60,036 bases of DNA, taken from positions 1-60,036 of the forward strand of contig NZ_CAINTR010000099.1 in the NCBI RefSeq assembly GCF_903853455.1. Reading direction: 5' to 3'. Below, piece after piece: positions 9,186 through 30,565 of the stretch. The notes beneath the pieces were generated by a model. That model did not search any database. It was not told where the DNA came from and worked only from the letters and a program-made list of their open reading frames with translations. Numbering within the stretch: the first letter of the stretch is position 1; every line of letters starts with the position of its first letter. The position numbers were made by a program, and so were the translations under genes. The DNA is from an uncultured Magnetospirillum sp. GTDB taxonomy: Bacteria > Pseudomonadota > Alphaproteobacteria > Rhodospirillales > Magnetospirillaceae.

Positions 9186-9215
9186 GTGACAGATCGCCCA
9201 ATCCGGGCTAATAAT
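9186..9215 (+). promoter_or_regulatory. Possible promoter of the aldolase/dehydrogenase gene
   Basis: GTGACA (9186-9191) and AATAAT (9210-9215) are 18 bases apart and lie 35 bases upstream of the ATG at 9251. Each box matches the sigma-70 consensus at five of six positions. Confidence 0.4.
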
Positions 9216-9250
9216 CCCGCCTGCCCGCGTCCCCCGTTTCGAGGTTGTCC

Positions 9251-13263: not shown

Positions 13264-13338
13264 TATAATCGCGGCGGCGTTAACGAGGCGTTATCCGACG
13301 AGCAGCCGTTCTCATTATGGCGCAGGGGAGGTCTTATA

Positions 13339-13492
13339 CCCCTCTCCCGTCTCACGGGAGAGGGTGCCGAGCGCAAGCGAGGCGGGTGAGGGCGCGCGCG
13401 TCTGCGCGCCATCCGACTTATTCGCTGGCGCGAGGCTCGCACTGCCGTGCGAGCCGCCCTCACCCCAACCCTCTCCCGCAAGCGGGAGAGGG
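13339..13492. repeat. Composite palindromic repeat, copy 1
   Basis: Two hairpins with the same arms (CCCTCTCCCG / CGGGAGAGGG) lie at 13340-13364 and 13469-13492. Between them, GGGTGAGGGC (13384-13393) can pair with GCCCTCACCC (13456-13465). The same architecture recurs at 50595-50721, so this is a dispersed REP/BIME-like element. Confidence 0.85.
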
Positions 13493-13661: not shown

Positions 13662-13782
13662 TTGCCGCCACCCACGCCATTCTCCACAAAATTTTTGGTG
13701 TTGTTGATAATTCTACACAATGCCATATCCATTTCAGTTTTGCCCTCCGGCTCCCCTAAACTCTCCCCAGGCAGCAGATGCA

Positions 13783-16700
13783 ATGAGTGTGGACATGACC
13801 CATCCGGCCCTTGGTTTCGGCATTTCCTTTCCCGACCTGTATGCGCGGGATGGGCTGGAGCGCGTCGATCACGCCTTCCTCGACGAGTTGGGACAGGCCG
13901 ATAGCCCCCTGCGGGATCGGCTGCTGGCGGCACGCGCCGAACCGGCGGCGGTGACGCCGAAGGAAGAGTCCGAGCTGATCATCGCCCTGGCTACCCATCT
14001 CGACGACTTCCTGGCCGGACTGTTCGGCATCCGCGCCGCTTGCGCCGAGCTGCGGCAACGCCACTCGGCCCTGGCGCCGCTGTATCAGGCCAAGCGCTTG
14101 TTCGTGCAGCGCCGCGCCGTCAAGGAGGTCAAGCCCGAGGAGGCTGCCGGCCTCGACCCCGATGCCCTGGTGCTGGACTATTCGGTGCGCACCGGCGAGA
14201 CCTTCTCCGAGATCGGCTTCGCCCGCCGGGTGCTGGCCTGGCTGGACGACGAGGCCGAGCATGGCGACGACCTCGCCTTCGCCGCTCGCCTCGCCGCCGC
14301 CAAGGTGGCCGAGGCTGGCCGCATGGTTCATCCCGAGGGCGTCCTGTTCCGCCTGCCGGGCAAGCACGATCCCCTCGCCCTGGTGGCGGTCGAAACGGTG
14401 GACCATTGCGGCGTCGCCGCCTTGCAGGGTGAAAGCGCCCGGCTGCGGCGGCGCGAGGGCTTCGACCTCACCGATTCCGGCACCGATCTGGCCGGCGCCC
14501 TGGACGAGATCAACTACTGCATCCTCTGCCACCATCAGGGCCGCGATTCCTGCTCCAAGGGCATGCGGGACAAGAAGACCGGCGAACTGGCCAAGACCGC
14601 TCTCGGCGTGGTCATGGAGGGCTGCCCGCTGGAGGAGAAGATCTCGGAGATGCACGAGGTCAAGGCCACCGGCCTGGCCCTGGCGGCGCTGGCGGTGATC
14701 ACCATCGACAATCCCATGGCCGCCGGCACCGGCCACCGCATCTGCAACGACTGCATGACCGCCTGCGTCTACCAGAACCAGAACCGCGATCCGGTCAACG
14801 TGCCCGAGGCCGAGACCCGCACCCTCAAGGACGTCATCGAGCTGCCCTGGGGCTTCGAGATCTATTCCCTGCTGACCCGCTGGAACCCGGTCAACCTGCG
14901 CCGACCGCTGCCGCGCCCCGATTCGGGCCGCAAGGTGCTGGTGGTCGGCATGGGGCCGGCCGGCTATACCCTCTCGCATCACCTGATGCAGGACGGCCAC
15001 CATGTGGTCGCCGTCGATGGCCTCAAGATCGAACCGCTGGCCGCCGACCTGTCGGGGGTCGATCCCCATGGCAAGCGGGTGCCGTTCCAGCCGGTGCGCG
15101 ACATCCGCGCCCTGTGGCAGAAGTTGGGCGACCGCGTCATGGGCGGATTCGGCGGTGTCGCCGAATACGGCATCACCGTGCGCTGGGACAAGAACTACCT
15201 GGACGTTATCCGCCTGCTGCTGGAGCGCCGGGCCGAATTCGCTCTGTTCGGCGGCGTGCGGTTCGGTGGCAACCTGACCCTGGAGGGCGCCTTCGCGCTC
15301 GGCTTCGACCATGTGGCGCTGGCGACGGGCGCCGGCAAGCCCACCATCCTCGACATGCCCAACGGCTTGGCGCGCGGCGTGCGCCAAGCCTCCGACTTCC
15401 TGATGGCGTTGCAGCTGACCGGCGCGGCGCGGGCCGACACCCTGGCCAATCTGCAATTGCGGCTGCCGGTGGTGGTGATCGGCGGCGGGCTGACCGCGGT
15501 GGATACAACCACCGAGGCGCTGGCCTATTACCCGGTCCAGGTGGAGAAGTTCCTTAGCCGCCACGAACTGCTGGTGGCCGAACGCGGCGAGCATGTGGTG
15601 CGGCTGCAATGGTCGGCGGAGGATCACGAGATCGCCGACGAGTTCATCGCCCATGCCCAGGCCATCCGGGCCGAGCGCCGGCTGGCGGCCGAGGAGGGGC
15701 GCCCGCCCCATATCCGCGAACTGCTGCAAAGCTGGGGCGGTGCCACCCTGGCCTATCGCCGCCGCCTGATCGACAGCCCCGCCTACCGCAATCACGAGGA
15801 AATCTCCAAGGCGCTGGAGGAGGGCATCCGCTTCGCCGAATGCCTGACCCCGGTGGCGGTGGAGGTGGACGATTTCGGCTCGGCCTCGGGCCTTCAGGTC
15901 AAGGACAAGGACGGCGTGCCCCATCGCCTGCCCGCCCGCTCCATCCTGGTGGCCGCCGGCACCGTGCCCAATACCAGCCTGGCCCGCGAGCGCTCCGACA
16001 TCACGCTCGACGGCAAGTTCTTCCAGGCGGTGGACGAGGACGGCCAGCCGGTCAGCCCCGAACGCCTGTCCAAGCCCGGCACGCCGCAGGTGCTGATGCA
16101 TGTGGACGGCCTGGACCGCACCGTCAGCTTCTTCGGCGACCTCCACCCTTCCTATGCCGGCAACGTGGTCTCGGCCATGGCCTCGGCCAAGCAGGGCCAC
16201 CCGGTGGTGACGCGGGCCATGGCGCGGCGGCCGGCCTCGGACGTGACCGCCAAGCAGCTGTTTGAACGGCTCAACGACAGCTTGCGGGCCAGCGTCCACG
16301 CCGTCAACCGCCTGACCCCCACCATCATCGAGGTGGTGATCCGCGCTCCCGCCGCCGCTCGGGCCTTCGAGCCGGGCCAGTTCTTCCGGTTGCAGAATTT
16401 CGAGATGCTGGCGCGCAAGGCCGGCGGCGCCGCGCTGGCCATGGAAGGCCTCGCCCTGACGGGGGCCTGGGTCGACAAGAGCCAGGGGCTGGTCGGGCTG
16501 ATCGTGCTGGAGATGGGCGGGTCCAGCGATCTGTGCGCCCATCTGCGGGTGGGCGAGCCGGTGATCCTGATGGGGCCGACCGGGGCTCCCACCCATGTCT
16601 GCGGCAAGGAAACCGTGCTGCTGGCCGGCGGCGGCCTGGGCAACGCCGTGCTGTTCTCCATCGGCCACGCCTTCCGCGCCGCCGGGTCCAAGGTGCTGTA

Positions 16701-17253
16701 CTTCGCCGGCTACAAGAACGCCCATGACCGCTTCAAAGTAGCCGACATCGAGGCCGCCGCCGACGTGGTGGTGTGGTGCGTCGATGGCGGCGAGGGTTTC
16801 ACCCCCGGCCGGCCCCAGGACAGGACCTTCGTCGGCAACATCGTCGAGGCCATGGTGGCCTATGGCGAGGGCCGCCTGGGCGAGCAGGCCATCGCCCTGT
16901 CATCCGTGGATCGGGTGATCGCCATCGGCTCGGACCGCATGATGGCGGCGGTGGCCAAGGCCCGCCACGACCGGCTGGCCCCCTGGCTGGTGGAGGGCCA
17001 TACCGCCATCGGCTCCATCAACTCGCCCATGCAATGCATGCTGAAGGAGGTCTGCGCCCAATGCCTCCAGCGCCACAAGGACCCGGTCACCGGCGAGGAG
17101 AAGATCGTCTTCACCTGCGCCGACCAGGACCAGCCGCTGGACCATGTGGATTTCGTCAGCCTGAACGAGCGCCTCAGCCAGAACTCCACCTGGGAGAAGC
17201 TGGGCAAGGCCTGGATCGACCGGGCGCTCAGGCAAGCGGGGCTGAGGGGATGA
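13783..17253 (+). CDS. Single-chain NfnB/GltD-like plus NfnA/PyrK-like iron-sulfur flavoprotein oxidoreductase
   Basis: This 1156-residue protein has four parts. Residues 1-240 match nothing I recognise. A GltD-like two-cluster segment follows, with cysteines in CILCHHQGRDSC (about 246-256) and CNDCMTAC (about 321-328). Next come an FAD site (VVGMGPAG, about 386) and an NAD(P) site (GGGLTA, about 566), as in the GltD/NfnB family. The last 330 residues resemble PyrK/NfnA: an FAD barrel (FEPGQFF), an NAD site (AGGGLG, about 947) and a C-x5-C-x2-C-x17-C cluster motif (1085-1112). By analogy it should move electrons between NADH, NADPH and ferredoxin, possibly by bifurcation. The start could also be the ATG at 13795 or 13720. 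It stands alone between a repeat region and a convergent cluster. Confidence 0.85.
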   Translation: MSVDMTHPALGFGISFPDLYARDGLERVDHAFLDELGQADSPLRDRLLAARAEPAAVTPKEESELIIALATHLDDFLAGLFGIRAACAELRQRHSALAPLYQAKRLFVQRRAVKEVKPEEAAGLDPDALVLDYSVRTGETFSEIGFARRVLAWLDDEAEHGDDLAFAARLAAAKVAEAGRMVHPEGVLFRLPGKHDPLALVAVETVDHCGVAALQGESARLRRREGFDLTDSGTDLAGALDEINYCILCHHQGRDSCSKGMRDKKTGELAKTALGVVMEGCPLEEKISEMHEVKATGLALAALAVITIDNPMAAGTGHRICNDCMTACVYQNQNRDPVNVPEAETRTLKDVIELPWGFEIYSLLTRWNPVNLRRPLPRPDSGRKVLVVGMGPAGYTLSHHLMQDGHHVVAVDGLKIEPLAADLSGVDPHGKRVPFQPVRDIRALWQKLGDRVMGGFGGVAEYGITVRWDKNYLDVIRLLLERRAEFALFGGVRFGGNLTLEGAFALGFDHVALATGAGKPTILDMPNGLARGVRQASDFLMALQLTGAARADTLANLQLRLPVVVIGGGLTAVDTTTEALAYYPVQVEKFLSRHELLVAERGEHVVRLQWSAEDHEIADEFIAHAQAIRAERRLAAEEGRPPHIRELLQSWGGATLAYRRRLIDSPAYRNHEEISKALEEGIRFAECLTPVAVEVDDFGSASGLQVKDKDGVPHRLPARSILVAAGTVPNTSLARERSDITLDGKFFQAVDEDGQPVSPERLSKPGTPQVLMHVDGLDRTVSFFGDLHPSYAGNVVSAMASAKQGHPVVTRAMARRPASDVTAKQLFERLNDSLRASVHAVNRLTPTIIEVVIRAPAAARAFEPGQFFRLQNFEMLARKAGGAALAMEGLALTGAWVDKSQGLVGLIVLEMGGSSDLCAHLRVGEPVILMGPTGAPTHVCGKETVLLAGGGLGNAVLFSIGHAFRAAGSKVLYFAGYKNAHDRFKVADIEAAADVVVWCVDGGEGFTPGRPQDRTFVGNIVEAMVAYGEGRLGEQAIALSSVDRVIAIGSDRMMAAVAKARHDRLAPWLVEGHTAIGSINSPMQCMLKEVCAQCLQRHKDPVTGEEKIVFTCADQDQPLDHVDFVSLNERLSQNSTWEKLGKAWIDRALRQAGLRG

Positions 17254-17260
17254 AGACGGA

Positions 17261-18265
17261 TTAGCGGAATTCCAGCCCGTCGGGCTCATAGACGACGATC
17301 TTGCTGCCCGAATTGTCGATGTCGAAATCCACGTGGATCAGCGAGTTCAGGCGCTCCCTGACCTTGGCCTGCTTCTCGGGCTCGACGTAGAACAGCATGA
17401 AGCCGCCGCCGCCGGCCCCCAGCAATTTCCCCCCGACGGCGCCGGCCTCGCGGGCGGCGTCGTAGATGGCGTCGATCTCGGGGGTGGTCACCGCGTCGGC
17501 CAGTTCGCGCTTCAGGCACCAGCTGTCATGCAGCAGCAGGCCGAGATCGGACAGCGGCCGCCGGTCGGTGGCCAGGATGTCCACCGCCTCGTCGACCATG
17601 GCCACCATCTTGCGGATATGAGCCTCGCGGTTGCCCAGATTGGCGATCTGCTTGGCCGCCACCTTGTCGGCATAGCGGGAAAAGCCGGTGAACATCAGCA
17701 TCAAGGAGCCCAGCATCTGCTTGCGCCGCTCCAGCGGCACGATCAGCGGCGAGACGTCGAAGGAATCGTCGCGATGGAAGTCGATGCGGTTCAGCCCGCC
17801 ATAGGCGGCCCAGACCTGATCCTGCGACCCCACATTCTCGCCGATCACCTTCTGCTCGATGCGGATGGCCTCCTCGGCCAGTTGCCGCTTGGTCGCCATC
17901 CGCCCTTGCTTGGCCATCAGGGTGTTGATCAGGCCGACGGTGAAGGAGGAGCTCGATCCCATGCCGGAGCGGGCGGGCAGGTCGCCGTCATGGTGGATTT
18001 CGACGCCGGTGGTGACGTTGAACTCGGACAGCACGGCGCGCACCGCCGGGTGCTGGATCTCGGCGATCTCGTTGACCGTCTCCACCTTGGAATAGGCGAT
18101 GCGGTGGCGGTGGGCGAAGAAGGGCGGCAGCGAACGCAGCGTGATGTAGCAGTATTTGTTGATGGTGAAGCCCATCACCGAACCGCCGTTCTGGCGGAAC
18201 CAAGTGGGATAGTCCGAGCCGCCGCCGAACAGGGACACGCGAAACGGAGTGCGGCTGATGATCAT
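17261..18265 (-). CDS. GHMP sugar kinase (HddA-like heptose-7-phosphate kinase family)
   Basis: This 334-residue kinase starts MIISRTPFRVSLFGGGSDY and carries the ATP-binding GHMP motif PARSGMGSSSS near residue 105 and the C-terminal glycine loop GKLLGAGGGG. It is closest in look to D-glycero-D-manno-heptose 7-phosphate kinase (HddA), but L-fucose and related sugar kinases share these features. The ATG at 18265 overlaps the stop of the nucleotidyltransferase gene (ATGA). A kinase plus a sugar-1-phosphate nucleotidyltransferase fits the HddA/HddC steps of GDP-heptose synthesis; no isomerase or phosphatase (GmhA, GmhB) is in the window, so the exact sugar is inference. Confidence 0.87.
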   Translation of the reverse strand: MIISRTPFRVSLFGGGSDYPTWFRQNGGSVMGFTINKYCYITLRSLPPFFAHRHRIAYSKVETVNEIAEIQHPAVRAVLSEFNVTTGVEIHHDGDLPARSGMGSSSSFTVGLINTLMAKQGRMATKRQLAEEAIRIEQKVIGENVGSQDQVWAAYGGLNRIDFHRDDSFDVSPLIVPLERRKQMLGSLMLMFTGFSRYADKVAAKQIANLGNREAHIRKMVAMVDEAVDILATDRRPLSDLGLLLHDSWCLKRELADAVTTPEIDAIYDAAREAGAVGGKLLGAGGGGFMLFYVEPEKQAKVRERLNSLIHVDFDIDNSGSKIVVYEPDGLEFR

Positions 18266-18999
18266 GCTTCGGTCTTTCCCTGGGGGAGCACGCCGCCGGC
18301 CTCGGCCAGACTGTCGGGCGTGCCGATGTCGATGAAGGCGGCGCCCTCGGCCCGCCAGCCGTGAATCCAGCCCGGCGGCAACCGCCCCAGGAAATCCTGC
18401 TCCAGCGACGGTCCCGAACCGGCGGCGAGGTGGTCCAGCGCCGGACGCGACAGCAGCAGCGCGCCGCCGTTGATCCAGCCGGGACCGGTCCGGCCGGGGG
18501 CCTTTTCGGCGAAGCGGGTCACGCTGCCGTCTTCCGCCAGTTCCACCTGCCCGTAGCGCGACACGTCGTCGACCGCGACGCAAAGCAGCGAGACCGGACA
18601 GGCGGCGCGGCGATGCTCGGCCAGGAAGGCGGCGAAGTCGGTTTCCAGCCAGGTGTCGCCGTTCATCACCATGACCGGGTCGCTGGTCAGGCGGGGCAGG
18701 ACATGACGCAGGGCGCCGCCGGTACCCAGCGGTGCCGGCTCCACCACCGGGACCACCGGCAGCGGCGGCGGATGGCGGTCGAGATGGGCGGTTACTTGCT
18801 CGGCGCCGACGCCCAGCGACAGCACGGCGCGGCCGGCGCCCAAGCCCGCCAGATGGTCGAGCAGATGGTCGAGGAAGGGGCGGCCGTTGATGGGGGCCAG
18901 CACCTTGGGCGTGTCGCCCAGAACGCCGCGAATGCGGGTTCCCAGGCCCCCGGCCAGCACGACCACATCGATTCCGAACAGTCCCGGCATGGCTTTCAC
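18262..18999 (-). CDS. Sugar-1-phosphate nucleotidyltransferase (HddC/RmlA-like)
   Basis: This 245-residue nucleotidyltransferase has the nucleotide-binding signature VVLAGGLGTR near residue 12, followed by PKVLAPINGRPFLDHLL, the metal-binding MVMNGDTW, and a C-terminal GAAFIDIGTPD. It activates a sugar 1-phosphate with a nucleotide. Pairing with the GHMP kinase immediately downstream suggests the HddC role (GDP-heptose), while glucose- or mannose-1-phosphate substrates are possible. The start is ATG at 18999, with a second ATG three codons later. A gap of 67 bases separates it from the membrane glycosyltransferase upstream. Confidence 0.87.
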   Translation of the reverse strand: MKAMPGLFGIDVVVLAGGLGTRIRGVLGDTPKVLAPINGRPFLDHLLDHLAGLGAGRAVLSLGVGAEQVTAHLDRHPPPLPVVPVVEPAPLGTGGALRHVLPRLTSDPVMVMNGDTWLETDFAAFLAEHRRAACPVSLLCVAVDDVSRYGQVELAEDGSVTRFAEKAPGRTGPGWINGGALLLSRPALDHLAAGSGPSLEQDFLGRLPPGWIHGWRAEGAAFIDIGTPDSLAEAGGVLPQGKTEA

Positions 19000-19066
19000 G
19001 GCATCCCTGACGACGAATGTCGGGAGTGTTACCAGAAGCGCGGTGCCATCCCAAGCGGTTTAAGGA

Positions 19067-20551
19067 TTACGCGGCGCATCGCCAGACATCGAAATACCGG
19101 CCGCTCGAGTCCAGATGGTGGTGGGCGGCGAAGGTCCGGCGGAAGCTGTCGTCGTAGACGGTCTGGTCGTAATAGCCGATCAGGCTGAACGGCGCCTCGC
19201 CGTGGGGGGTCAGCCACAGCCGGGTCTCGCAGGCGGCCATGCGGCGGACGGTTTCGGCCGGCATGGCGACGCCCAGCTTGGTCATCTCCATGACGATGCC
19301 GGTGTCCAGGGTATAGGGGCTGCCGGCGAAGACCGGCAGGTTGCGCCAGGAATACAGGTAGAACTTCTGGTCGGCGCGGGGGCCGCCGACTCCCATCTGG
19401 ATCGACTCGCCGGGATGGGCGCGAAGGACGCCCTCGATCTCCGCCGTGACCTCCCGCGACTCGTTCCATTCCAGCGTCTTGAAAAACCGCTTCTCGGTCT
19501 GGGCCGCCATGAACAGCAGCAGGACCGCCACCACCGCCAGGGCCCGCCGGGCCAGCACCCGCTCGCCCGCCGCCGACAGGGCGCGCAGGGTCAGGTCGAT
19601 CAGGATGGGGAGGAACGGCAGGTAGTAGTGGTGGCTGCCGCCGAATTTGGTCGCCGGGAACAGGACCAGCAGGACGCAGCCCACATAGGCGGCGAGATAC
19701 AGCCGCAGACGGCCGCGCAGGGCGGAGAATCCGGCCAATCCCCACACCACCAGGGGAATGCCCAGGTAGAAGGCGAACTTCATCCACAACACGCGAAAGC
19801 CGTTCCAGGTGTTCTCCTTGCCCGACATGGGACCGAACCAGGACAGATAGTCCGCCAGCGGGAACAGCGGCGACAGGAACGGCACCGCCAGCGCCGCCAG
19901 CCCGGCCACCGCCATGGGCGCCAGCCGCCGCCAGTTGGGAACCAGATGGAACAGCACCGCCGGGGCCAGATACAGTCCGGCGTGGATCTTGACGTTGACG
20001 GCGATGCCGCCGGCGACGCCGATCACCAGGGTTTCGCCCCAGGCCATGTCGGTCCTGGCCTCGGCCCGCAGCGCCGCCAGGACCGCCAGGGTCACCAGGG
20101 CGGTCAGCAGGGAATCGGGCCGGATGGTGATGGGAAAGCCCAGATGGAAGAGGATCAGGCCGGCGGCCAGCGCCACCGCCACCGCCTCGCCCAGCCTGCC
20201 GTGACGTCGCCCGATCATCCAGGCGCCGGCGAGCACCAGGACGGGGGCGAGAACTCCCGCGATCTTGCTCGACGCCAGCGATGCCCCGAACAGGGCCAGC
20301 GGCCATGCGTGCCATAGATAGGTCCAGGGACCGTAGACGTTGGAAATCCGCTCCGGCGCGTCGAAGGCGTAATAGGCCGGATGCCCCTGGAGCAGGCGAT
20401 AGGCGGTGGCCGAGATGGCGGCCTCGCCATGTTCCAGGTAGCCGGGATACAGGGCGTAGGCGACGACCACCGCCAGCAGGTTGACGGCGGCGAACGCCGC
20501 CAGCCCGAGAAGAACGCGCGACGCCGCGTCCCGCGGCAACCGGGTCGTCAC
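19067..20551 (-). CDS. Multi-spanning membrane glycosyltransferase-like protein (ArnT/PMT-type)
   Basis: This 494-residue integral membrane protein has about ten hydrophobic segments and a soluble C-terminal domain of about 120 residues. The loop after the first segment is acidic and rich in aromatics (EHGEAAISATAYRLLQGHPAYY), which fits GT-C transferases that use polyprenyl-phosphate sugars. The start is GTG at 20551, overlapping the stop of the preceding family 2 glycosyltransferase (GTGA). That upstream enzyme could make the polyprenyl-phosphate sugar this protein transfers in the periplasm. Specificity is unknown. Confidence 0.75.
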   Translation of the reverse strand: MTTRLPRDAASRVLLGLAAFAAVNLLAVVVAYALYPGYLEHGEAAISATAYRLLQGHPAYYAFDAPERISNVYGPWTYLWHAWPLALFGASLASSKIAGVLAPVLVLAGAWMIGRRHGRLGEAVAVALAAGLILFHLGFPITIRPDSLLTALVTLAVLAALRAEARTDMAWGETLVIGVAGGIAVNVKIHAGLYLAPAVLFHLVPNWRRLAPMAVAGLAALAVPFLSPLFPLADYLSWFGPMSGKENTWNGFRVLWMKFAFYLGIPLVVWGLAGFSALRGRLRLYLAAYVGCVLLVLFPATKFGGSHHYYLPFLPILIDLTLRALSAAGERVLARRALAVVAVLLLFMAAQTEKRFFKTLEWNESREVTAEIEGVLRAHPGESIQMGVGGPRADQKFYLYSWRNLPVFAGSPYTLDTGIVMEMTKLGVAMPAETVRRMAACETRLWLTPHGEAPFSLIGYYDQTVYDDSFRRTFAAHHHLDSSGRYFDVWRCAA

Positions 20552-21513
20552 GCTTGCGTCACCGCGCGGTCGGGAACGATCTCCACCCCCTCGGCCTCGG
20601 CGACGAGCCAGCGCGGCCGACCGCGCACATCCTTGTAGACCCGCGCCACGTAGACGCCGGTGACGCCCATGGCCGCCATCAGGCTGCCCCAGAAGAACAC
20701 GGCCAGCGCCGCGATCAGCCAGCCCGACGCCGAGGCCCCCACGGCCAGGGCAAGCAGTCCGGCCAGCACCAGCAGCGGCACCAGGGCGAGCCCGGCCAGT
20801 CCGGCCCAGACCACCACGTAGATCGGCAGGAACGAGAACGAGGTCACGCCGGAGACCATGGTCTTGACCGCGTTGCGATGCAGGCCGGAGAACTTGCTTT
20901 CGCCGCAATGGCGGGGCTGACGTTCGTAATCGACGAAGACCTGGCGAAAGCCCATCCACACGGCGAGGCCGCGGATATAGGGGTCCTGCTCCCGCAGGCT
21001 CAGCATATGCTGGGCGGCGCGGCGCGACAGCAGCTTGAAGTCGCCGGACTCGATGGGCATCTGGCCGCGCGAGGTCCAGTTGATCAGCTCGTAGGCGCGC
21101 CGGGTCAGCCACATGCGCAGCGGCGCCTCGCCATGACGGGCGATGCGCCTTGTGTGGACCACGTCGTGGCCGGCCCGCCACTCGGCCAGCAACAGCGGCA
21201 CCAGCTCGGGCGGGTCCTGGAGGTCGCAGTCCATGTAGATGCGGGCATCGCCGGTGGCGGCGGCCAGACCGGCCAGCACGCCCTCGGAGGGGCCGGCGCG
21301 CCGGGCGGTGGTGATGAACTTGACGCGCGGATCACCGGCGCGGGCCTGGGTCAGGATCGCCACCGACCGGTCGGTGGAGCAATCGTTGACGAAGATGAAC
21401 TCATAGCCCTCGGGCCGGCCATCGGCCATGGCCTGGAGGCGGCGGATCAGCTCCGGCAGGTTATCCTCCTCGTTGCGGAACGAGAGGATGATGGAAACCA
21501 GATCGGATTTCAT
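20548..21513 (-). CDS. Family 2 glycosyltransferase with C-terminal membrane hairpin (DPM1/GtrB/ArnC-like)
   Basis: This 321-residue protein has an N-terminal GT-A domain with SIILSFRNEEDNL, VNDCSTD and the metal-binding YMDCDLQDPPE. Two membrane segments follow (about residues 230-290), ending in a short tail. This is the layout of polyprenyl-phosphate glycosyltransferases, which load a sugar from a nucleotide donor onto undecaprenyl phosphate at the inner face of the membrane. The next gene, coupled by overlap, is a GT-C-like membrane protein, the expected partner. The ATG at 21513 is the natural start. Confidence 0.9.
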   Translation of the reverse strand: MKSDLVSIILSFRNEEDNLPELIRRLQAMADGRPEGYEFIFVNDCSTDRSVAILTQARAGDPRVKFITTARRAGPSEGVLAGLAAATGDARIYMDCDLQDPPELVPLLLAEWRAGHDVVHTRRIARHGEAPLRMWLTRRAYELINWTSRGQMPIESGDFKLLSRRAAQHMLSLREQDPYIRGLAVWMGFRQVFVDYERQPRHCGESKFSGLHRNAVKTMVSGVTSFSFLPIYVVVWAGLAGLALVPLLVLAGLLALAVGASASGWLIAALAVFFWGSLMAAMGVTGVYVARVYKDVRGRPRWLVAEAEGVEIVPDRAVTQA

Positions 21514-21572
21514 TCAATACCGCCATGACCTGCTGTCGGGTGCGGGCGCACTTTAGGCAATGACGGACTGTA

Positions 21573-23084
21573 TTACAACAGCGGCTCAATCAGCGCGTCT
21601 TCCACCAGCTTCCGCTTCAGCCGGTGCACCGCCATCGCCTCGATGTGGTGGCGGGTGTCCCAGCCGAAGCGCTGCGCCACCATGCCGAGATAGCGCTCGG
21701 CGGCGAAGTATTCGTGGAAGGCGTCGTCGCGGAACTTCAACACCTGGGCGGCGGTACAATGCTCGGTGGGCAGCGGCTTGCAGTCATAGGAATGCTGGGA
21801 ATAGCCGGCCCAGGATGCGGGCAACGGCCAGCCCTGCTCCACCGCCTGGGTGTAGAGGCCGGAGCCGGGATAGGCCATGGCGGAATAGAAATTGGCGAAC
21901 TCGCAGTTCAGTTCCTTGGCCAGGTCCAGGGTTTCGCGCATGGTGGCCAGGGTGTCGTCGGGCAGGCCGAAGATGTAGTTGCCGATGACGCAGATCCCCG
22001 CCTTCTGGATCTCGCGGACAATGCCGACGATATCCTCGTAGCGCAGATTCTTGTCGGCGCCGTCGCGCACATGCTTGGAGCCCGATTCGATGCCCAGCGC
22101 CAGCCAGCGGATGCCGGCTTGGCGCAGCTTGGCCAGCATGGCCGGCTTGACGGTGTCGACGCGGGCATAGGCCCAGAAATTCAACTGGTCGGAATAGCCC
22201 AGCTCGATCAGCCCGTCGCAGATGGCGGTCACGTGACGGTCGTTCAGCACGAACATCTCGTCGATGATCTTGAAGGTCTTGACGCCATAGGTGCGGTACA
22301 GCCGATCGACCTCGGCCACCACCTGAACCGGGGACCGCATGCGGTAGCGATTGGCGTCGAACGGCGCGTTGATGCAACAGAAGCTGCACTTGTAGGGGCA
22401 GCCCAGCGAGGTGTAGATGCTGGCATAGGGCAGCCGGTTGTCCAGGTCGCCGAAGCATTGCCAGTTGTGGGCGCGATACTTGGCCATGGGCAGCAGGTGC
22501 CAAACGTCGCCGTGCAGGTCGGCGTCGAGGTCGTGGATCAGCGGCGCCGATAGGTTCACCTTGATCTCGTCCTCGCCGTCGCGCCAGACCAGCCCCGCCA
22601 CCTCGCGGGGTTCGTCCACCGCGCCGGCCTCCAGCCAGTCCAGCAGCTGAACCACGGTGACCGGCCCCTCGCCCTTGCAGGCGAAGTCCACCGGCTCCTC
22701 GGCCAGGGTGCGTTCCGGCAAGGCGGAGACATGGCCGCCGACGATCAGGATGGGAATCTCCGGCGTCCGCTCCTTGATGGCGGAGCAGGATTCGCCGGCA
22801 GCAACCATCTGCTGGGTCGAGGCCGAGGGCTGGTGGCCGAACACCACCATCACCACCAGGGTGGGGCTCAGCTCCTGGATGCGCGCCGCCACCGCCGCCG
22901 GCCCCATCTCCTCGGCCTCGGAATCGATGATCACCACCCGCTTGCCGCGGTCGACGGCATAGCCGGCGATCAGGCGGCACCACAGCGGCGGCTCGATGGC
23001 GGTCAGGTCGGTGCCGAGCTGCTGATAGATGCGCTCGCGGCCGCCGGGGTTGACGAGGACGAGGTCGGGGCGGCTGGTGGTCAT
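21573..23084 (-). CDS. B12-binding-domain radical SAM protein
   Basis: This 503-residue protein has an N-terminal cobalamin-binding-like domain (about residues 10-150, with GGHVSALPE and CKGEGP; the classical DxHxxG is not conserved). A radical SAM barrel follows, whose cluster motif is CPYKCSFC (about residue 228). A C-terminal domain follows with NYIFGLPDD near residue 370. Enzymes of this layout methylate unreactive carbons or do other radical chemistry. Being inside a sugar cluster, between an SDR and glycosyltransferases, it may modify a sugar or lipid carrier; this is inference. It starts four bases after the SDR stop. Confidence 0.9.
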   Translation of the reverse strand: MTTSRPDLVLVNPGGRERIYQQLGTDLTAIEPPLWCRLIAGYAVDRGKRVVIIDSEAEEMGPAAVAARIQELSPTLVVMVVFGHQPSASTQQMVAAGESCSAIKERTPEIPILIVGGHVSALPERTLAEEPVDFACKGEGPVTVVQLLDWLEAGAVDEPREVAGLVWRDGEDEIKVNLSAPLIHDLDADLHGDVWHLLPMAKYRAHNWQCFGDLDNRLPYASIYTSLGCPYKCSFCCINAPFDANRYRMRSPVQVVAEVDRLYRTYGVKTFKIIDEMFVLNDRHVTAICDGLIELGYSDQLNFWAYARVDTVKPAMLAKLRQAGIRWLALGIESGSKHVRDGADKNLRYEDIVGIVREIQKAGICVIGNYIFGLPDDTLATMRETLDLAKELNCEFANFYSAMAYPGSGLYTQAVEQGWPLPASWAGYSQHSYDCKPLPTEHCTAAQVLKFRDDAFHEYFAAERYLGMVAQRFGWDTRHHIEAMAVHRLKRKLVEDALIEPLL

Positions 23085-23088
23085 GGGG

Positions 23089-24027
23089 TCAGACGTTTCC
23101 GTAGATGCTGTTCTTGATCATGGTGTAGCCCTTGATCAGGTCGTCGATGCCGGCGTCCAGCGAATGGGCGGGTTTCCAGCCGGTCCGCTCGATCTTCTCG
23201 TTGGACACGATGTAGTCGCGCTTGTCGGGGTCCTCGCCGATGGGGGCCTCGACGAACACGAACTTCGGCAGATGCTTCTGGATCACCTGGGCCAATTCCA
23301 TCTTGGACAAGTTGGCGTCGGACAGGCCCACATTGTAGGGCTGATCTTTCATGGCGTCGAAATTGTTCAGGCCATGCATGAAGGCGCGGGTCACGTCGCG
23401 CACGTGGATGTAGTTGCGCTTGAAGTGCGGCTCGAACAGCACCACGGCGCGGTCAGTGACGGCGCGGTAGGTGAAGTCGTTGACCAAGAGGTCGATGCGC
23501 ATGCGCGGCGCCATGCCGAACACGGTGGCGAGGCGGAAGCTGATGGCGTTGCCGCGCTCCATCAGCGCCTTCTCCACCTCGACCTTGTGGATGCCGTACA
23601 GCGACAGCGGCCGCAGCGGCGATTCCTCGGTGCAGAACTTGCCGTGCTCGCCGACGCCGTAGCCGGAATTGGTGATGGGCATCAGCACCCGTTGCTCGCG
23701 CGACAGCATCTTGAACAGGGCTAGCGGCGAGTCGAGGTTAGTGGTGGTGGCGCCGATGGGGTCGAGCGAACACAGCGGCGCCCCCACCAGGGCGGCCAGC
23801 GGGACCACCACGTCGGCGCCCTTGACCAGCGTCTTCATCAGCGCCTCGTCGCGGCAATCGCCCTTGACCACCGAGAAGTTGGTATTGGCGCAGCAATGGG
23901 CCAGCGAGTTCTGCTTGAACATGAAATTGTCGAGCACGGTGACCTTGTGACCGGCCGCCAGCAGTTCGGGCACCATGATCGAGCCGAGATAGCCGGCACC
24001 GCCGGTCACCAGGATGTTGTAGGTCAT
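23089..24027 (-). CDS. NAD-dependent epimerase/dehydratase (extended SDR)
   Basis: This 312-residue enzyme starts MTYNILVTGGAGYLGS, with the Rossmann motif at residues 9-15 and the catalytic YxxxK in YGIHK. It is a nucleotide-sugar epimerase, dehydratase or reductase. The ATG at 24027 is chosen because GGAGG lies just upstream and homology starts there; an in-frame start at 24099 would add a highly charged leader. In the context of a ColD-like dehydratase and a transketolase pair it could be the reductase or epimerase that completes a deoxysugar. The exact reaction cannot be told from sequence. Confidence 0.9.
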   Translation of the reverse strand: MTYNILVTGGAGYLGSIMVPELLAAGHKVTVLDNFMFKQNSLAHCCANTNFSVVKGDCRDEALMKTLVKGADVVVPLAALVGAPLCSLDPIGATTTNLDSPLALFKMLSREQRVLMPITNSGYGVGEHGKFCTEESPLRPLSLYGIHKVEVEKALMERGNAISFRLATVFGMAPRMRIDLLVNDFTYRAVTDRAVVLFEPHFKRNYIHVRDVTRAFMHGLNNFDAMKDQPYNVGLSDANLSKMELAQVIQKHLPKFVFVEAPIGEDPDKRDYIVSNEKIERTGWKPAHSLDAGIDDLIKGYTMIKNSIYGNV

Positions 24028-24061
24028 CGCTTCGCTCCTCCCTTTATTTTTGTCCTCAAGC

Positions 24062-24166
24062 GCCGGCACTCGCTCGCGCTCGCTTGGCTTCCGCGCCATG
24101 TGGCGCGCGCCCTCAACGGGCTAGTCGCTTCGCTCCCTGTTCTCCCCTCCCCTTGATGGGGAGGGG
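24062..24166. repeat. Intergenic repeat block with GC-rich hairpins
   Basis: The block contains a GCGCCATGTGGCGC palindrome and, at 24144-24166, a CCCCTCCCC / GGGGAGGGG hairpin. The reverse complement of about 24085-24113 shares a core (GGCGCGG-AGCCAAG pattern) with the intergenic region at about 40612-40640. Confidence 0.6.
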
Positions 24167-24181
24167 GCGGGGGTGAGGTGG

Positions 24182-25354
24182 TCACCGGCATGTCTTATCC
24201 AGAACCTCGCGCAGACGGGTGATCTGCGGCGTCACGTCGAACGGATGGTTGCCGACGAAGAAGCCATGGTCATGGGCGGTGTCGGCATTGGGCACCGCGC
24301 CGCCGACCACCTCGTAGTCGTAGTGCTTGATCACGTCGTGGCGCAGGAAATTGCCGCCGGTGATGATGCGATAGCCGATATCGGCGTCCTTGAGGGCGGC
24401 GAAGACCTTGTTGCGGTCGATCTTCTTGGCCGGGTTCAAGATGATGGTCAGGGCGAAGGCCGAGCTTTTGCCGTTCTCGCGCTGGATGACGAAGCGCTCG
24501 TCCGTGCCGAACAGCTCCTGGAACAGGGCCAGGTTGTTGCGGCGCTGAACGGTGAAGCCGGGCAGCTTCTTCAACTGCTCGCGGCCGATGGCGGCTTCGA
24601 TTTCCAGCGGCCGCACGTTGTAGCCGGGCAGCACGAAGCGGTAGGCCTCGAAGAAATCGCTGCCCGTCTTCTGGAACACCGGGCTGTCGGGCGGCAGGTC
24701 CCGCGTCCAGCCATGGGCGCGCAACGAGCGGCACAAATGCGCCAGCTCGGTGTCGTCGGTGAGGATCATGCCCCCTTCCATGGTCGAGATATGGTGCGAG
24801 AAGAAGAAGCTGAAGGTGTTGAGATGGCCGAAGGTGCCGCACTTCCGGCCGTTCAGCTCGGCATCCATGCTCTCGCAATTGTCTTCCAGCAGGTAGAGGC
24901 CGTGGGCGTCGGCGAAGGCGCGCATCACGTCCAGCGCCGCCGGATTGCCCAGGATCGACACCGCGACGATGGCCCGCGTCCTGGGGGTCAGCGCCTTCTC
25001 AAGCTGGGTGACGTCCATGTTCAGGGTCTGGAGGTCCACATCGATGAAGCGGAGCTTGAGGCCGTATTGCTGCAGCGGGTGATAGGTGGTGGCCCACGAG
25101 ATCACCGGCACGATGACCTCGTCGCCGCGCTGCAACGGACGGTCGGCCTTGTAGGCCAGGGCGGCCACCGCGATCAGGTTGGCCGAGGAACCGGAATTGA
25201 CCATGATGCCGTGTTTGACGCCGTGATAGGCGGCGAACTCTTCCTCGAACGCCTTGACATGGGCGCCCATGGTGTAGAACCCGGAATCGATGACACCCTT
25301 GGCGGCGGCGGCCTCTTCGGGACCCCAGGACGGGGCGGCGAGCTCGTAGAACAT
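24182..25354 (-). CDS. DegT/DnrJ/EryC1-fold sugar 3-dehydratase, ColD-like (His replaces PLP lysine)
   Basis: This 390-residue PLP-dependent fold-type I protein has the usual lysine position occupied by histidine: the segment is SHHISTMEGG, with the second His at residue 188. In E. coli ColD (GDP-4-keto-6-deoxymannose 3-dehydratase, almost the same length) His188 replaces the lysine; in E1/RfbH a His does the same. These enzymes remove the C3 hydroxyl of a 4-keto-6-deoxy sugar rather than transaminate. The start is the ATG at 25354; an in-frame TTG at 25396 overlapping the upstream stop is less likely. The neighbours are a split transketolase and an SDR. Whether the sugar is GDP- or CDP-linked is inference. 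Confidence 0.9.
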   Translation of the reverse strand: MFYELAAPSWGPEEAAAAKGVIDSGFYTMGAHVKAFEEEFAAYHGVKHGIMVNSGSSANLIAVAALAYKADRPLQRGDEVIVPVISWATTYHPLQQYGLKLRFIDVDLQTLNMDVTQLEKALTPRTRAIVAVSILGNPAALDVMRAFADAHGLYLLEDNCESMDAELNGRKCGTFGHLNTFSFFFSHHISTMEGGMILTDDTELAHLCRSLRAHGWTRDLPPDSPVFQKTGSDFFEAYRFVLPGYNVRPLEIEAAIGREQLKKLPGFTVQRRNNLALFQELFGTDERFVIQRENGKSSAFALTIILNPAKKIDRNKVFAALKDADIGYRIITGGNFLRHDVIKHYDYEVVGGAVPNADTAHDHGFFVGNHPFDVTPQITRLREVLDKTCR

Positions 25355-25382
25355 AATCCAAGCAATCCTGTGGTTAGGGTCG

Positions 25383-26345
25383 TTACTGCCGCTCAAGGAA
25401 GGCGCGCACTCTCGTCTCGGCCACGGCCGGACCGATCCCCACCTGCTCGTGCAAGGTGGCGCGGTCGCCCAGCTCGAAACGATAGGCCGGTTCCACCCCG
25501 ATGCCCAGGGTGGGGCGTTCCAGCCCCTGTCGGCTCAACAGATCGCGCAACAGGGAATCCACGCCGCCCCGGCCGCTGAAGCCCTCTTCCATGCTGATCA
25601 GCGTCGGCCTGGCGGCGAGCAGTCTGGCCAGCGCGTCCTGGTCGAAGCCGGACAGGTCGAACAGGTCGACGACGGCAAGGTGGATTCCGTCCTCGGCAAG
25701 CCTTTCCGCCACCTTCAGCGCGGTATGCACCATATAGCCGGTGGCCACCACACTGGCGTCGGTCCCGTCCCGCAGCAGGGTGAAGCCTTGGGTAAGGTCG
25801 GGTGCCGTCTCGCCATAGAGGACCGGCAGGTTCTGGGCGTCGAAGCGCAGATATTTCAGTCCCGTCCGACCGGCGCAGTGGTCGAACAGAGCGCCGGCGG
25901 TGACGTGGTCGGCGGGCGACAGCACCCGGAACCCGGGCAGGGCTCGCATCAGGGTGATGTCCTCGTAGCACTGGTGGGTCGGTCCCGACACCACGTAGCT
26001 GTAGCCAGCCCCCACCCCGACCAGGGTGACGTTCATGGTCCGCACCGTGGACAGCAGGGCCAGATTGGTGCGGCACTGCTCGTAACAGCGCATGGTGATG
26101 AAGGGGGCGATGGCGTAGGCGAAGACCTTGAACCCCTCCAGCGCCAGGCCGGCGGACACATTGATCAGATTCTGTTCGGCGATGCCCACATTGACGAAAC
26201 GGTTGGGGAAATCGCTCCGGATGCGGTCCAGGGTGGGGGCGCCGAAATCGGCGGCGACGAAGAACAGGCGCTCGTCCGCGGCCATGCCCTGCCAGATGCG
26301 CTCCAGCAGGGCGTCGCGCATGGCCCTTGGGCGGGGCGCGGTCAT
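25383..26345 (-). CDS. Transketolase C-terminal subunit (pyrimidine-binding part)
   Basis: This 320-residue protein contains the PYR domain and the C-terminal transketolase domain. The conserved glutamate that activates thiamine diphosphate lies in NVGIAEQNL (about residue 57), and GPTHQCYEDI matches the family. It forms an active enzyme with the subunit encoded just upstream; the ATG at 26345 overlaps that gene's stop (ATGA). Split transketolases of this type are often found in secondary or surface-sugar clusters rather than in the pentose phosphate pathway. Here the neighbouring ColD-like dehydratase suggests two-carbon transfer to a keto-deoxysugar, which is inference. Confidence 0.92.
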   Translation of the reverse strand: MTAPRPRAMRDALLERIWQGMAADERLFFVAADFGAPTLDRIRSDFPNRFVNVGIAEQNLINVSAGLALEGFKVFAYAIAPFITMRCYEQCRTNLALLSTVRTMNVTLVGVGAGYSYVVSGPTHQCYEDITLMRALPGFRVLSPADHVTAGALFDHCAGRTGLKYLRFDAQNLPVLYGETAPDLTQGFTLLRDGTDASVVATGYMVHTALKVAERLAEDGIHLAVVDLFDLSGFDQDALARLLAARPTLISMEEGFSGRGGVDSLLRDLLSRQGLERPTLGIGVEPAYRFELGDRATLHEQVGIGPAVAETRVRAFLERQ

Positions 26346-27169
26346 GGCCGGGAGTCCTGCAACAGGGCGTCGATGAGTTCGATCTTGGGCGACATGATGT
26401 GGGACAGCGGGGCATTCTCCAGGCCGGGCACGCCCCGGCCCTTGATGGTGCGGGCCACCAGCGCCTTGGGTCGGCCGTTCCGGGCCTTCTTCAGATGCGT
26501 CAGCGCCCCGTGCACCGCCATGACGTCGTGGCCGTCCACCTCCAGGCAGTCCCAGCCGAAACCGCCCAGGCGGTCGGCAAGCTTGCCCAGAGAGTTGATC
26601 TCGTCGGTGAAGCCCAGCATGCAGATGCGGTTGTCATCGACGATCAGGGTCAGGTTGTCCAGCCGGTTCTGGGCGGCGAACATGATGGCCTCCCAGTTGG
26701 CGCCCTCGTGCAGTTCGCCGTCGCCGGTGACCACGACGACGTCCTGCGGCATGCCCTTGACCTTGAGGCCCAGCGCCATGCCGCTGGCCACGCCCAATCC
26801 GTGACCCAAAGAGCCGTTGACCGTTTCATAGCCGGGGATCACCGGATCGGGGATGCCGCCCAGGAAGCTGCCGGCCTGGCACACCCGCTCGAGCTCCTCG
26901 GCCGGGAAGAAGCCCAGGTCGGCCAGGATCGGGTACATGCAGATGGAGCCATGGCCCTTGCTGATGATGCAGCGGTCACGCTCTTCCCAGCCGGGGTGCT
27001 GGGGATCGAAGCGCAGCAGGCCGCCGTAATAGAGCGCGACGAAAATCTCGATGGGCGACAGCGACGATGCCAAGCGGACTTCCGGTGCCCGGCGGTAGAC
27101 TTCCAGGGTCTGGCGCCATACCCAGTCCGCCTTGGCCCGCAAATCCACGTTGACCCCTGAAGCTTCCAC
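26342..27169 (-). CDS. Transketolase N-terminal subunit (ThDP-binding part)
   Basis: This 275-residue subunit carries the thiamine diphosphate/metal motif GDGELHEGANWEA followed by the conserved Asn (about residues 148-175), and the SKGHGS and GSLGHGLGVASGMA segments. It supplies the pyrophosphate-binding half of the active site. The start is GTG at 27169, with AAGG a few bases upstream. The gene is the first of the minus-strand run that continues through the sugar enzymes, so promoter activity should lie in 27170-27234. Confidence 0.92.
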   Translation of the reverse strand: MEASGVNVDLRAKADWVWRQTLEVYRRAPEVRLASSLSPIEIFVALYYGGLLRFDPQHPGWEERDRCIISKGHGSICMYPILADLGFFPAEELERVCQAGSFLGGIPDPVIPGYETVNGSLGHGLGVASGMALGLKVKGMPQDVVVVTGDGELHEGANWEAIMFAAQNRLDNLTLIVDDNRICMLGFTDEINSLGKLADRLGGFGWDCLEVDGHDVMAVHGALTHLKKARNGRPKALVARTIKGRGVPGLENAPLSHIMSPKIELIDALLQDSRP

Positions 27170-28835: not shown

Positions 28836-28978
28836 GGTGTAGCCGTAACTGGAGCGTCGTGCTTTTTTCAGCATTGCACCAAAAAGGATCGACGTGATCC
28901 GCATCCTTCACGGCGCCCGTGACGTGCAAAGCCTTTAGCCCTTGATTCTTGCACCGGTTCCGACGAAAACCCAAGCCC
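28836..28978. other. Leader region of prfC with two short hairpins
   Basis: GGATC/GATCC (28886-28900) and TCACGG/CCGTGA (28908-28922) are adjacent dyads between the unknown membrane gene and prfC. They might end the upstream transcript or structure the prfC leader. No promoter stands out. Confidence 0.3.
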
Positions 28979-30565
28979 ATGAGCACTCTGTCCGAATCCC
29001 TGGCGCTGCGGCGCACCTTCGCCATCATCTCGCACCCGGATGCCGGCAAGACCACCCTGACCGAAAAGCTGCTGCTGTTCGGCGGCGCCATCCAGCTGGC
29101 CGGCGCGGTGCGCGCGCGCGGCGAGCAGCGGCGCACCCGGTCCGACTGGATGGCCATCGAGAAGGAACGCGGCATCTCGGTGTCGGCCTCGGTGATGACC
29201 TTCGAGCATGAAGGGCTGACCTTCAACCTGCTCGACACGCCCGGTCACGAAGACTTTTCCGAGGATACCTACCGCACCCTGACCGCCGTCGATTCGGCGA
29301 TCATGGTGCTGGACGCCGCCAAGGGCATCGAGACCCAGACCCTGAAGCTGTTCGAGGTCTGCCGCCTGCGCGACGTGCCCATCATCACCTTCATCAACAA
29401 GGTGGACCGCGAGGGCCGCGACACCTTCGACCTGCTGCACGAGGTGGAAAAGACCCTGGCGCTGGACGTCTGCCCGGTCACCTGGCCCATCGGCATGGGC
29501 CGCGACCTCAAGGGCGTGTTCGACCTGGTGCGCGACCGGGTCATCCTGTTCGATCCCGGCCGCGGCGACCACATCGTCGAGATCGCGGTGGACGCTCCGC
29601 TCGACTCGCCCAAGCTGGACGAGGTGGTGGGCGCCGCCGCCGCCGCCAAGCTGCGGGACGAGGTCGAGCTGGTGCGCGGCGGCTATCCCGAATTCGACCT
29701 GGAAAGCTTCCTGGCCGGCCACTTGACGCCGGTGTTCTTCGGCAGCGCCTTGAAGACCTTCGGCGTGGCCGAACTGCTGCGCGGAGTCGGCCGGCTGGCG
29801 CCGCCGCCGCAGCCGCGCAAGGCCCAGAGCCGCTCCGTCGAGCCCATTGAGCCCAAGGTCACCGGCTTCGTGTTCAAGGTCCAGGCTAACATGGACCCCA
29901 ACCACCGCGACCGCATCGCCTTCTTCCGCATCTGCTCGGGCCGCTTCAAGCGCGGCATGAAGCTGAAGCATGTGCGTTCCGGCAAGATGATGGCCCTGGT
30001 CAACCCGGTGTTCTTCCTGGCCCGCGACCGCGAGCTGGCGGAAGAGGCCTTCCCCGGCGATATCATGGGCATTCCCAACCACGGCCAGTTGCGCATCGGC
30101 GACACCTTGTCGGAAAGCGAGGACCTCAACTTCCTCGGCATTCCCACCTTCGCGCCGGAAGTGCTGCGCCGGGTCCGTCTCGACGACCCCATGAAGGCCA
30201 AGCAGTTGCGCAAGGCGCTGGAAGACCTGGCCGAGGAAGGCGTCTCCCAGGTGTTCAAGCCGCTGGACGGCTCGACCTGGATCGTCGGCGTGGTCGGCGC
30301 GCTGCAATTCGACGTGCTGACCACCCGCATCGAAAGCGAATACAGCATCAAGGCCGGCTTCGAGGAGGCTCCCTTCGTCACCGCCCGCTGGGTCGCCTGC
30401 GACTCCGAGGTCGAGATGAAGCGCTTCATGGAGGCCAACAAGTCCAACATGGCCGAGGACCGCGACGGCGGCATCGTCTATCTCGCCCGCAACACCTGGC
30501 AGATGAACCGGGCGCAGCAGGATTTCGAGACGGTCCGCTTCACCTCGACGCGGGAGCAGCATTAG
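28979..30565 (+). CDS. prfC: Peptide chain release factor 3
   Basis: This 528-residue translational GTPase removes RF1/RF2 from the ribosome after termination. G motifs: SHPDAGKTT (G1), ERGISV (G2), DTPGHEDF (G3), NKVDREG (G4). Domains II and III follow with GFVFKVQANMDPNHRDR and TWIVGVVGALQFDV, which identify RF3 rather than EF-G. The ATG at 28979 gives the standard length; an in-frame TTG at 28949 is less likely. The methyltransferase gene follows after 13 bases, so they may share a transcript. Confidence 0.97.
   Translation: MSTLSESLALRRTFAIISHPDAGKTTLTEKLLLFGGAIQLAGAVRARGEQRRTRSDWMAIEKERGISVSASVMTFEHEGLTFNLLDTPGHEDFSEDTYRTLTAVDSAIMVLDAAKGIETQTLKLFEVCRLRDVPIITFINKVDREGRDTFDLLHEVEKTLALDVCPVTWPIGMGRDLKGVFDLVRDRVILFDPGRGDHIVEIAVDAPLDSPKLDEVVGAAAAAKLRDEVELVRGGYPEFDLESFLAGHLTPVFFGSALKTFGVAELLRGVGRLAPPPQPRKAQSRSVEPIEPKVTGFVFKVQANMDPNHRDRIAFFRICSGRFKRGMKLKHVRSGKMMALVNPVFFLARDRELAEEAFPGDIMGIPNHGQLRIGDTLSESEDLNFLGIPTFAPEVLRRVRLDDPMKAKQLRKALEDLAEEGVSQVFKPLDGSTWIVGVVGALQFDVLTTRIESEYSIKAGFEEAPFVTARWVACDSEVEMKRFMEANKSNMAEDRDGGIVYLARNTWQMNRAQQDFETVRFTSTREQH

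Follow-up and report, generated by a model that had tools for sequence, protein, structure and literature searches.

The stretch of DNA analyzed here (the window) is a 60,036-nucleotide contig (C99) from the 5.18-Mb genome of an uncultured Magnetospirillum sp., and our subject is a candidate operon on its minus strand that places a split transketolase (TK) beside a ColD-type sugar 3-dehydratase. An earlier reading of the same DNA, here called the original prediction, had singled out five of its genes as a possible route to a branched deoxysugar. These five are present as described: all lie on the minus strand (27169-21573) with no intergenic gap wider than 154 bases, and Pfam domains match the assignments of all five. 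Along that strand they encode the two TK halves, a DegT-family dehydratase, an extended short-chain dehydrogenase/reductase (SDR) and a B12-binding radical S-adenosylmethionine (radical-SAM) protein. The operon runs past 21573, to 17261, through genes for a family 2 glycosyltransferase (GT2), a PMT_2-type membrane protein, an NTP_transferase protein and a GHMP kinase. The nine genes are listed below, with ThDP, PLP and PMP standing for thiamine diphosphate, pyridoxal 5'-phosphate and pyridoxamine 5'-phosphate.

26342..27169, minus strand: tktN, ThDP-binding N-terminal half of a split TK (Pfam Transketolase_N, 2e-31; top PDB sequence 6yak, a split TK, E=4.5e-49)
25383..26345, minus strand: tktC, pyrimidine-binding and C domains of the split TK (Pfam Transket_pyr, 2.4e-20, and Transketolase_C, 3e-16; top PDB sequence 6yaj)
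24182..25354, minus strand: ColD-type PLP/PMP 3-dehydratase of the DegT family (DegT_DnrJ_EryC1, 1.4e-82; ColD, 2gms, E=1e-112)
23089..24027, minus strand: extended SDR (Pfam Epimerase, 1.4e-28; 6vo6, E=9.6e-115)
21573..23084, minus strand: B12-binding radical-SAM protein, HpnJ/BchE-like (Pfam B12-binding and Radical_SAM; CxxxCxxC motif by eye)
20548..21513, minus strand: GT2, PgfS/ArnC-like (Glycos_transf_2, 4.3e-29)
19067..20551, minus strand: PMT_2-like membrane protein, a GT-C type glycosyltransferase (PMT_2, 9.7e-10; start set by overlap with the upstream gene)
18262..18999, minus strand: nucleotidyltransferase, HddC-like (NTP_transferase, 2.9e-19; top PDB sequences 6jq8/5xhw, ~3e-35)
17261..18265, minus strand: GHMP kinase, HddA-like (heptose-7-phosphate kinase; Pfam GHMP_kinases; nearest PDB sequences include heptose kinases)

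The dehydratase aligns with ColD over residues 5-389 of 394, and the next-best kind of match, a cytidine diphosphate (CDP)-sugar 3-dehydrase, follows at 4e-49. A histidine replaces the PLP lysine at the position of ColD H188, in the numbering of the original prediction. The residue (H191 in alignment numbering) is conserved without exception in 38 of 38 DegT proteins; the alignment (A1) covers the order set defined below, 41 sequences, apart from L051, L063 and L066, whose matches each contain a stop. Printed alignments give N at the same position in PDB 3b8x and K in 2r0t. The full-length ColD alignment and the 38 histidines confirm the replacement of lysine by His188, as in ColD, on which the original prediction had drawn. 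By this likeness the enzyme would remove the C3 hydroxyl of a guanosine diphosphate (GDP)-4-keto sugar. Its closest relatives, among the best 80 of 578 confirmed ones, belong to a Phaeospirillum metagenome-assembled genome (MAG; 93% identity) and to Paramagnetospirillum/Magnetospirillum species (91-92%). The window shares this ColD-type GDP-sugar dehydratase with the colitose pathway (ColD, ColC), but its operon lacks a 4,6-dehydratase, and its ketone would be branched instead of simply being reduced.

The gene neighborhoods of related dehydratases were compared by tblastn in two overlapping sets of loci: an order set (the window and 40 of the 57 other DegT matches) and a named set (the best 80 of the 578 confirmed relatives). 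The order set omits 11 matches of ~40% identity and those in G009, G244, G217, G124, G184 and G194 (short contigs, contig ends or not taken). In the order set, 36 of 41 loci have a ThDP-dependent carboligase no more than 10 kb from DegT: a TK in 16, a pyruvate dehydrogenase E1-like (E1) pair in 15 and an acetolactate synthase-like (ALS) enzyme in 5; the other 5 have none. The named set gives 73 of 80 (E1 59, TK 8, ALS 3, E1 with ALS 2, TK with E1 1, none 7), and an SDR match in 76. When the 121 DegT sequences are reduced to 108 distinct ones and the ThDP label is set at 80 bits, 33% identity and 10 kb, 95 of them lie near a carboligase (E1 68, TK 20, ALS-like 6, E1 with TK 1). Domain content was verified for representative proteins of L043 and L056. 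As a control, a lysine-type DegT family of the same order had a ThDP match of at least 60 bits in 0 of 20 regions, which are 20 of the 37 listed matches besides the query; two of these regions span no more than 4-6 kb. Another query tried as a control had matches in just 3 genomes and was set aside. The ~40%-identity DegT proteins (11 regions) were also considered as controls and dropped, as several carry GMD-like (GDP-mannose 4,6-dehydratase), kinase-like and E1-like genes.

The core gene set recurs in tens of genomes, which argues that the grouping is not due to chance. The original prediction had put the TK pair in the place held by YerE in yersiniose synthesis (gene names E1/E3, YerE and YerF as given there), and this idea gains from the relatives that carry an E1 or ALS-like carboligase beside the ColD-type dehydratase. 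On a quick tree of the 108 DegT sequences, in which 35 of 105 inner branches stay unresolved, 11 changes are required to account for the ThDP types; counting only the well-supported branches, at least 3 are forced for TK and 4 for ALS.

Several counts weigh against a constant partnership. No ThDP gene is in view for 13 of the 108 pooled sequences, and of the seven named loci without one, four have less than 1.3 kb of upstream sequence and three do not. When the carboligase has to lie within 3 kb on the strand of the DegT gene and to score 80 bits, the counts drop to 29/41 and 63/80, and some of the counted matches are weak (for example ALS at 25-26% and E1 at 28-31% identity). Taken as a whole, these neighborhoods give strong support to a role of the ThDP enzyme in branching the ketone left by the dehydratase.

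Exchange of the ThDP enzyme can be followed at one chromosomal place. Window positions 17270-25354, from the kinase to the start of the dehydratase gene, align in three blocks of 84-91% identity with L083, a locus of a Phaeospirillum MAG, and seven genes stand in the same order in both (dehydratase, SDR, radical-SAM, GT2, PMT-like, nucleotidyltransferase and kinase). Positions 28886-30565, a release-factor GTPase gene by eye, match L083 at 92%. Between the dehydratase gene and this gene the window holds the TK pair and ~1.7 kb with no conserved counterpart, whereas L083 holds an E1 pair (7991-10007). Since TK and E1 are exchanged at one place within a kept operon, the ThDP enzyme very probably works in the same pathway as the kept genes. 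The correspondence is imperfect, which counts against reading the two forms as equivalent: L083 has an extra gene (13770-15173) between radical-SAM and GT2, a 467-residue radical-SAM-like frame with 24% identity to the protein of the window, and L043, from the same genus and with an E1 pair, has a similar match at 12431-13393 on the other strand. No such extra gene was seen in the window, L040, L041 or L042. With this gene in L083 and L043, the final products of the E1 and TK forms may differ.

Two further observations concern the distribution of split TKs. Among the other DegT regions of the host genome (L174-L178), one of five has a split TK: L177 (G000:C122, 9810-13759), where it lies with a lysine-keeping DegT (by eye) and an SDR resembling dTDP-glucose-4,6-dehydratase. 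At L140 and L142 (Niveibacterium sp. 24ML) the module TKs are 55-57% identical to that of the window and carry the same Ile and Arg substitutions. The position of L142 outside the Alphaproteobacteria suggests horizontal transfer of the module.

The residues of the split TK bear on what it could do. Its ThDP site is kept, with the GDG...N motif in tktN and the catalytic Glu position in tktC. The positions of E. coli H26, H100, H461, D469 and R520 are occupied by R, I, G, S and A, while the split TK 6yak/6yaj retains all five E. coli residues in the printed alignments. In the E. coli enzyme these residues bind the hydroxyls of donor and acceptor and the phosphate. In a hand-picked table of 20 module TktN and 11 other TKs, H100 is lost in 17 of the 20 (Ile in 6, Tyr in 11), with L039, L094 (an incomplete sequence) and L109 retaining it, and is retained in all 11 of the others. 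Changes at H461 and D469 are common to the 5/5 other split TKs tabulated for TktC and hence less telling, and R520 is retained in a second module lineage; that table contains no housekeeping TK, which was read separately. A full-length TK is encoded elsewhere in the host genome (C64). With the substrate-binding residues changed and a separate full-length enzyme present, a pentose-phosphate role for the split TK is unlikely.

The same findings speak to a reading without branching, in which the operon makes an unbranched 3-deoxyheptose and the TK pair serves to supply the GDP-heptose branch with a precursor, either sedoheptulose 7-phosphate or some higher ketose phosphate. Ordinary TK chemistry does yield sedoheptulose 7-phosphate, and heptose-type genes stand in the same operon. 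The changed residues and the C64 enzyme argue the other way, as do the stand-ins of the TK, for neither E1 nor acetolactate synthase-like enzymes are known to make sedoheptulose 7-phosphate. We consider precursor supply very unlikely. For a TK that instead branches the ketone, we slightly favor an acetyl over a hydroxyacetyl donor unit, because the His that presumably contacts the C1 hydroxyl of the donor has been lost and because pyruvate-type enzymes are exchanged for the TK.

The sugar backbone is indicated by the remaining genes. The SDR shares 168 of 310 aligned residues (54%) with 6vo6, the second PDB match falling to 4.6e-24, and its catalytic Tyr-Lys pair (Y144 and K148) is invariant in 34 sequences (alignment A2). 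We take 6vo6 to be Cj1427, the Campylobacter GDP-D-glycero-D-manno-heptose C4-dehydrogenase. The best four PDB sequences for the kinase are 3k85 and 4n3o, named heptose kinases, and 4usm and 4usk, named putative sugar kinase, which we believe to be WcbL. The top matches of the nucleotidyltransferase, 6jq8/5xhw, are named 'putative 6-deoxy-D-mannoheptose pathway protein' and are presumably HddC. Kinase matches recur in 24/41 order-set and 56/80 named loci, and a GmhB-like phosphatase match lies by the module in 8/41 order-set loci. In the host genome a GmhA-like gene (198 bits, cut-off 209) and a GmhB-like gene (182 bits, cut-off 178) are found, both outside the operon. Pfam and NCBIfam searches of the nine genes in the operon gave no 4,6-dehydratase. 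Cj1427 is the enzyme that oxidizes GDP-manno-heptose at C4 (PMC7949155, PMC10680097), and purified Cj1427 with the HS:5 C3-dehydratase has yielded GDP-D-glycero-3-deoxy-4-keto-heptose in vitro (PMC10680097). The likeness of the SDR to 6vo6, the HddA/HddC-like genes and the lack of an operon 4,6-dehydratase together make GDP-heptose the likely substrate, oxidized at C4 rather than 4,6-dehydrated. C4 oxidation of GDP-heptose is accordingly our better guess for the SDR, and the backbone is probably a 3-deoxyheptose rather than a 3,6-dideoxyhexose. On both counts we depart from the original prediction, which had proposed a 3,6-dideoxyhexose and a YerF-like reductase role for the SDR.

Other observations pull against the heptose assignment. 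The PDB list names 6vo6 only as 'putative sugar-nucleotide epimerase/dehydratease', and its identity with Cj1427 was sought in print and not confirmed. Curated cut-offs are missed by a wide distance for both HddA (125.5 bits against 600) and HddC (104 against 300), and among NCBIfam models the nucleotidyltransferase scores highest with a mannose-1-phosphate guanylyltransferase (129 bits, also under its cut-off), HddC coming second. GmhA also occurs in members of the genus that have no DegT match. A clear GmhA is missing from three of four genomes of family f20 that have a TK module and were examined with SIS_2 (G189 none, G138 4e-4, G108 2e-6), though the GmhA model in place of SIS_2 gives 2e-13 in G108. 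GMD-like matches, many of them weak, appear in 6/41 and 10/80 loci. In the other direction, L064:16077-17642, beside the module in G108, encodes an HldE-like protein with its domains reversed (adenylyltransferase, then PfkB kinase).

Some of these points would fit branching on GDP-mannose, with the SDR oxidizing C4, the dehydratase removing O3 and the ThDP enzyme branching C4; the guanylyltransferase model and the three f20 genomes without a clear GmhA are what this reading has in its favor. It leaves the GHMP kinase without a task, as GDP-mannose synthesis needs no heptose-type enzyme of this kind, and it does not sit well with the GmhB-like matches by the module or with an SDR (if 6vo6 is Cj1427), a kinase and a nucleotidyltransferase whose nearest solved relatives are heptose-pathway proteins. 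We regard it as the least probable of the alternatives.

The hexose route of the original prediction deserves more weight. Here a GDP- or CDP-4-keto-6-deoxyhexose would be 3-dehydrated, the TK would add hydroxyacetyl to give a branched 3,6-dideoxyhexose, and the SDR would be the final ketoreductase, as YerF is taken to be. The native substrate of ColD is indeed GDP-4-keto-6-deoxymannose (PMC10440746), the host genome has a GMD-like gene beside a DegT that is 87% identical to that of the window (L039), and a strong GMD-like match occurs at L053, L055 and L057 in the order set and at L127 and L131 in the named set. Yet the operon has no 4,6-dehydratase, its SDR is much nearer to 6vo6 (1e-114) than to other solved SDRs (5e-24), and HddA/HddC-like genes recur with the module. 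The reductase position may also be filled already, since 26 of the 80 named loci have a separate GDP-fucose-synthase-like match. For this operon we judge the hexose route unlikely. With a strong GMD-like gene in a few relatives, a 6-deoxy version of the pathway probably coexists there.

The second DegT of the host genome mentioned above (L039, G000:C181:10345-11514) lies near the GMD-like 4,6-dehydratase gene, an aldo-keto reductase gene and a further radical-SAM gene; its split TK is not that of the window and has H100 in place. Farther away, L163, L164 and L166 have DegT proteins ~40% identical to that of the window near GMD-like, HddA-like and E1 genes, and L167 resembles them but has no GMD match; the E1 matches are weak in L163 and L167. 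In these four loci the branching pathway may perhaps act on a 6-deoxyheptose.

We put the probability at roughly 60% that the operon makes a GDP-linked 3-deoxyheptose with a branch at C4, destined for a surface glycan, by means of exchangeable ThDP enzymes. In this scheme heptose 7-phosphate from GmhA would be converted to GDP-D-glycero-D-manno-heptose by the HddA-like kinase, GmhB and the HddC-like guanylyltransferase. The SDR would oxidize C4, as Cj1427 does, and the ColD-type enzyme with PMP would take off the C3 hydroxyl to give GDP-3-deoxy-4-keto-heptose. The split TK-like enzyme would then put a two-carbon ketol unit on the C4 ketone, so that C4 becomes a tertiary alcohol bearing an acetyl or a hydroxyacetyl group; relatives would use an E1-like pair or an acetolactate synthase-like enzyme for this step. 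Finally, the B12 radical-SAM protein would tailor the sugar, and the GT2 and PMT-like enzymes would transfer it, perhaps through a lipid carrier. The SDR and dehydratase steps have in vitro precedent with homologues, and we infer all steps from homology, gene order and exchange; the same holds for the product, the donor and the radical-SAM step. A literature search that included glycan composition in the genus found no glycan structure for this organism, which tells against the scheme.

A match to the radical-SAM protein of the window is found in 25/41 and 39/80 loci, so this protein looks like a tailoring enzyme rather than part of the core. It scores 170 bits with the NCBIfam model for HpnJ (cut-off 578). 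Methylation, which the original prediction had raised for it, would be one possible step. The GT2 scores 195 bits with the PgfS model and 137 bits with an ArnC-type model, both under cut-off, and its acceptor is perhaps polyprenyl-phosphate.

Comparison with known systems indicates where the proposed pathway would stand. Campylobacter jejuni GDP-heptose modification offers a C4-dehydrogenase relative, HddA/HddC-like genes and a ColD-type C3-dehydratase (that of HS:5/HS:11); the difference is that the work in PMC10680097 is in vitro synthesis of novel compounds, and ThDP branching is not in the section of it covered here. Yersiniose A of Yersinia pseudotuberculosis is likewise formed by 3-deoxygenation and then ThDP branching of a C4 ketone, in which YerE takes an activated acetaldehyde unit from pyruvate and joins it to the keto group of CDP-3,6-dideoxy-4-keto-glucose (PMC12247030). 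Of the yersiniose-type features, the window has the ThDP carboligase next to a PMP 3-dehydratase and lacks a 4,6-dehydratase in the gene set. Yersiniose A further differs in its CDP-6-deoxyhexose and decarboxylase-type YerE; the module instead combines a ThDP enzyme of TK or E1 type with genes of heptose type and a relative of the C4-dehydrogenase.

In antibiotic clusters, alpha/beta enzymes of the alpha-keto acid dehydrogenase-2 kind add a pyruvate-derived two-carbon unit to keto sugars (aldgamycin, kibdelomycin, paulomycin and avilamycin; PMC12247030). They have the same domains as the E1 pairs of the relatives, but the companion genes in the module are of the GDP-heptose type, and the bacteria that carry it are mostly Gram-negative. 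The split TKs of miharamycin and amipurimycin are the nearest parallel for the TK itself, as split TKs with proposed keto-sugar branching: hydroxyacetyl transfer to a keto sugar is proposed for them, in vitro demonstration is lacking, and the 13 candidates of the miharamycin type that were counted are all from Streptomycetes (PMC12247030). The TK of the window is proteobacterial, lies beside a ColD-type dehydratase and has lost H100.

The pathway is apparently undescribed. No account of this gene combination came up in open-licence full-text literature, searched through listings and the starts of abstracts, which makes this a weak absence, and a branched heptose was not seen in the portion of PMC3210612 covered. 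A more general proposal, to which we give somewhat less than even odds, is that a GDP-linked 3-deoxy-4-C-branched heptose (nine-carbon) pathway is widespread, mostly in Proteobacteria, that its TK-, E1- and ALS-like enzymes have been interchanged repeatedly, and that the TK has become ketone-accepting and abandoned recognition of ketose phosphates. A 2025 review describes the use of ketone acceptors by transketolases in sugar branching as still pending (PMC12247030). The operon offers a directly testable proteobacterial candidate for such a TK, with a substrate that can be made by published enzymes, and the filling of one slot by TK, E1 or ALS-type enzymes is a natural experiment. If the proposal is correct, branched heptoses would be a new class among the surface sugars of bacteria related to magnetotactic, Azospirillum and marine species, and the pathway would also provide new catalysts for making chiral tertiary alcohols.

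Two features of the window lie outside the operon. Convergent with it, a plus-strand gene at 13720-17253 encodes a 1177-residue protein, a redox fusion by eye, and the DNA of this putative fusion gene has an aligning counterpart close to the module in G118 (L043). The tips of the contig (1-306 and 59731-60036) form a 306-base inverted repeat of 99% identity; probably the contig stops in a repeated element, or the tips are a product of assembly.

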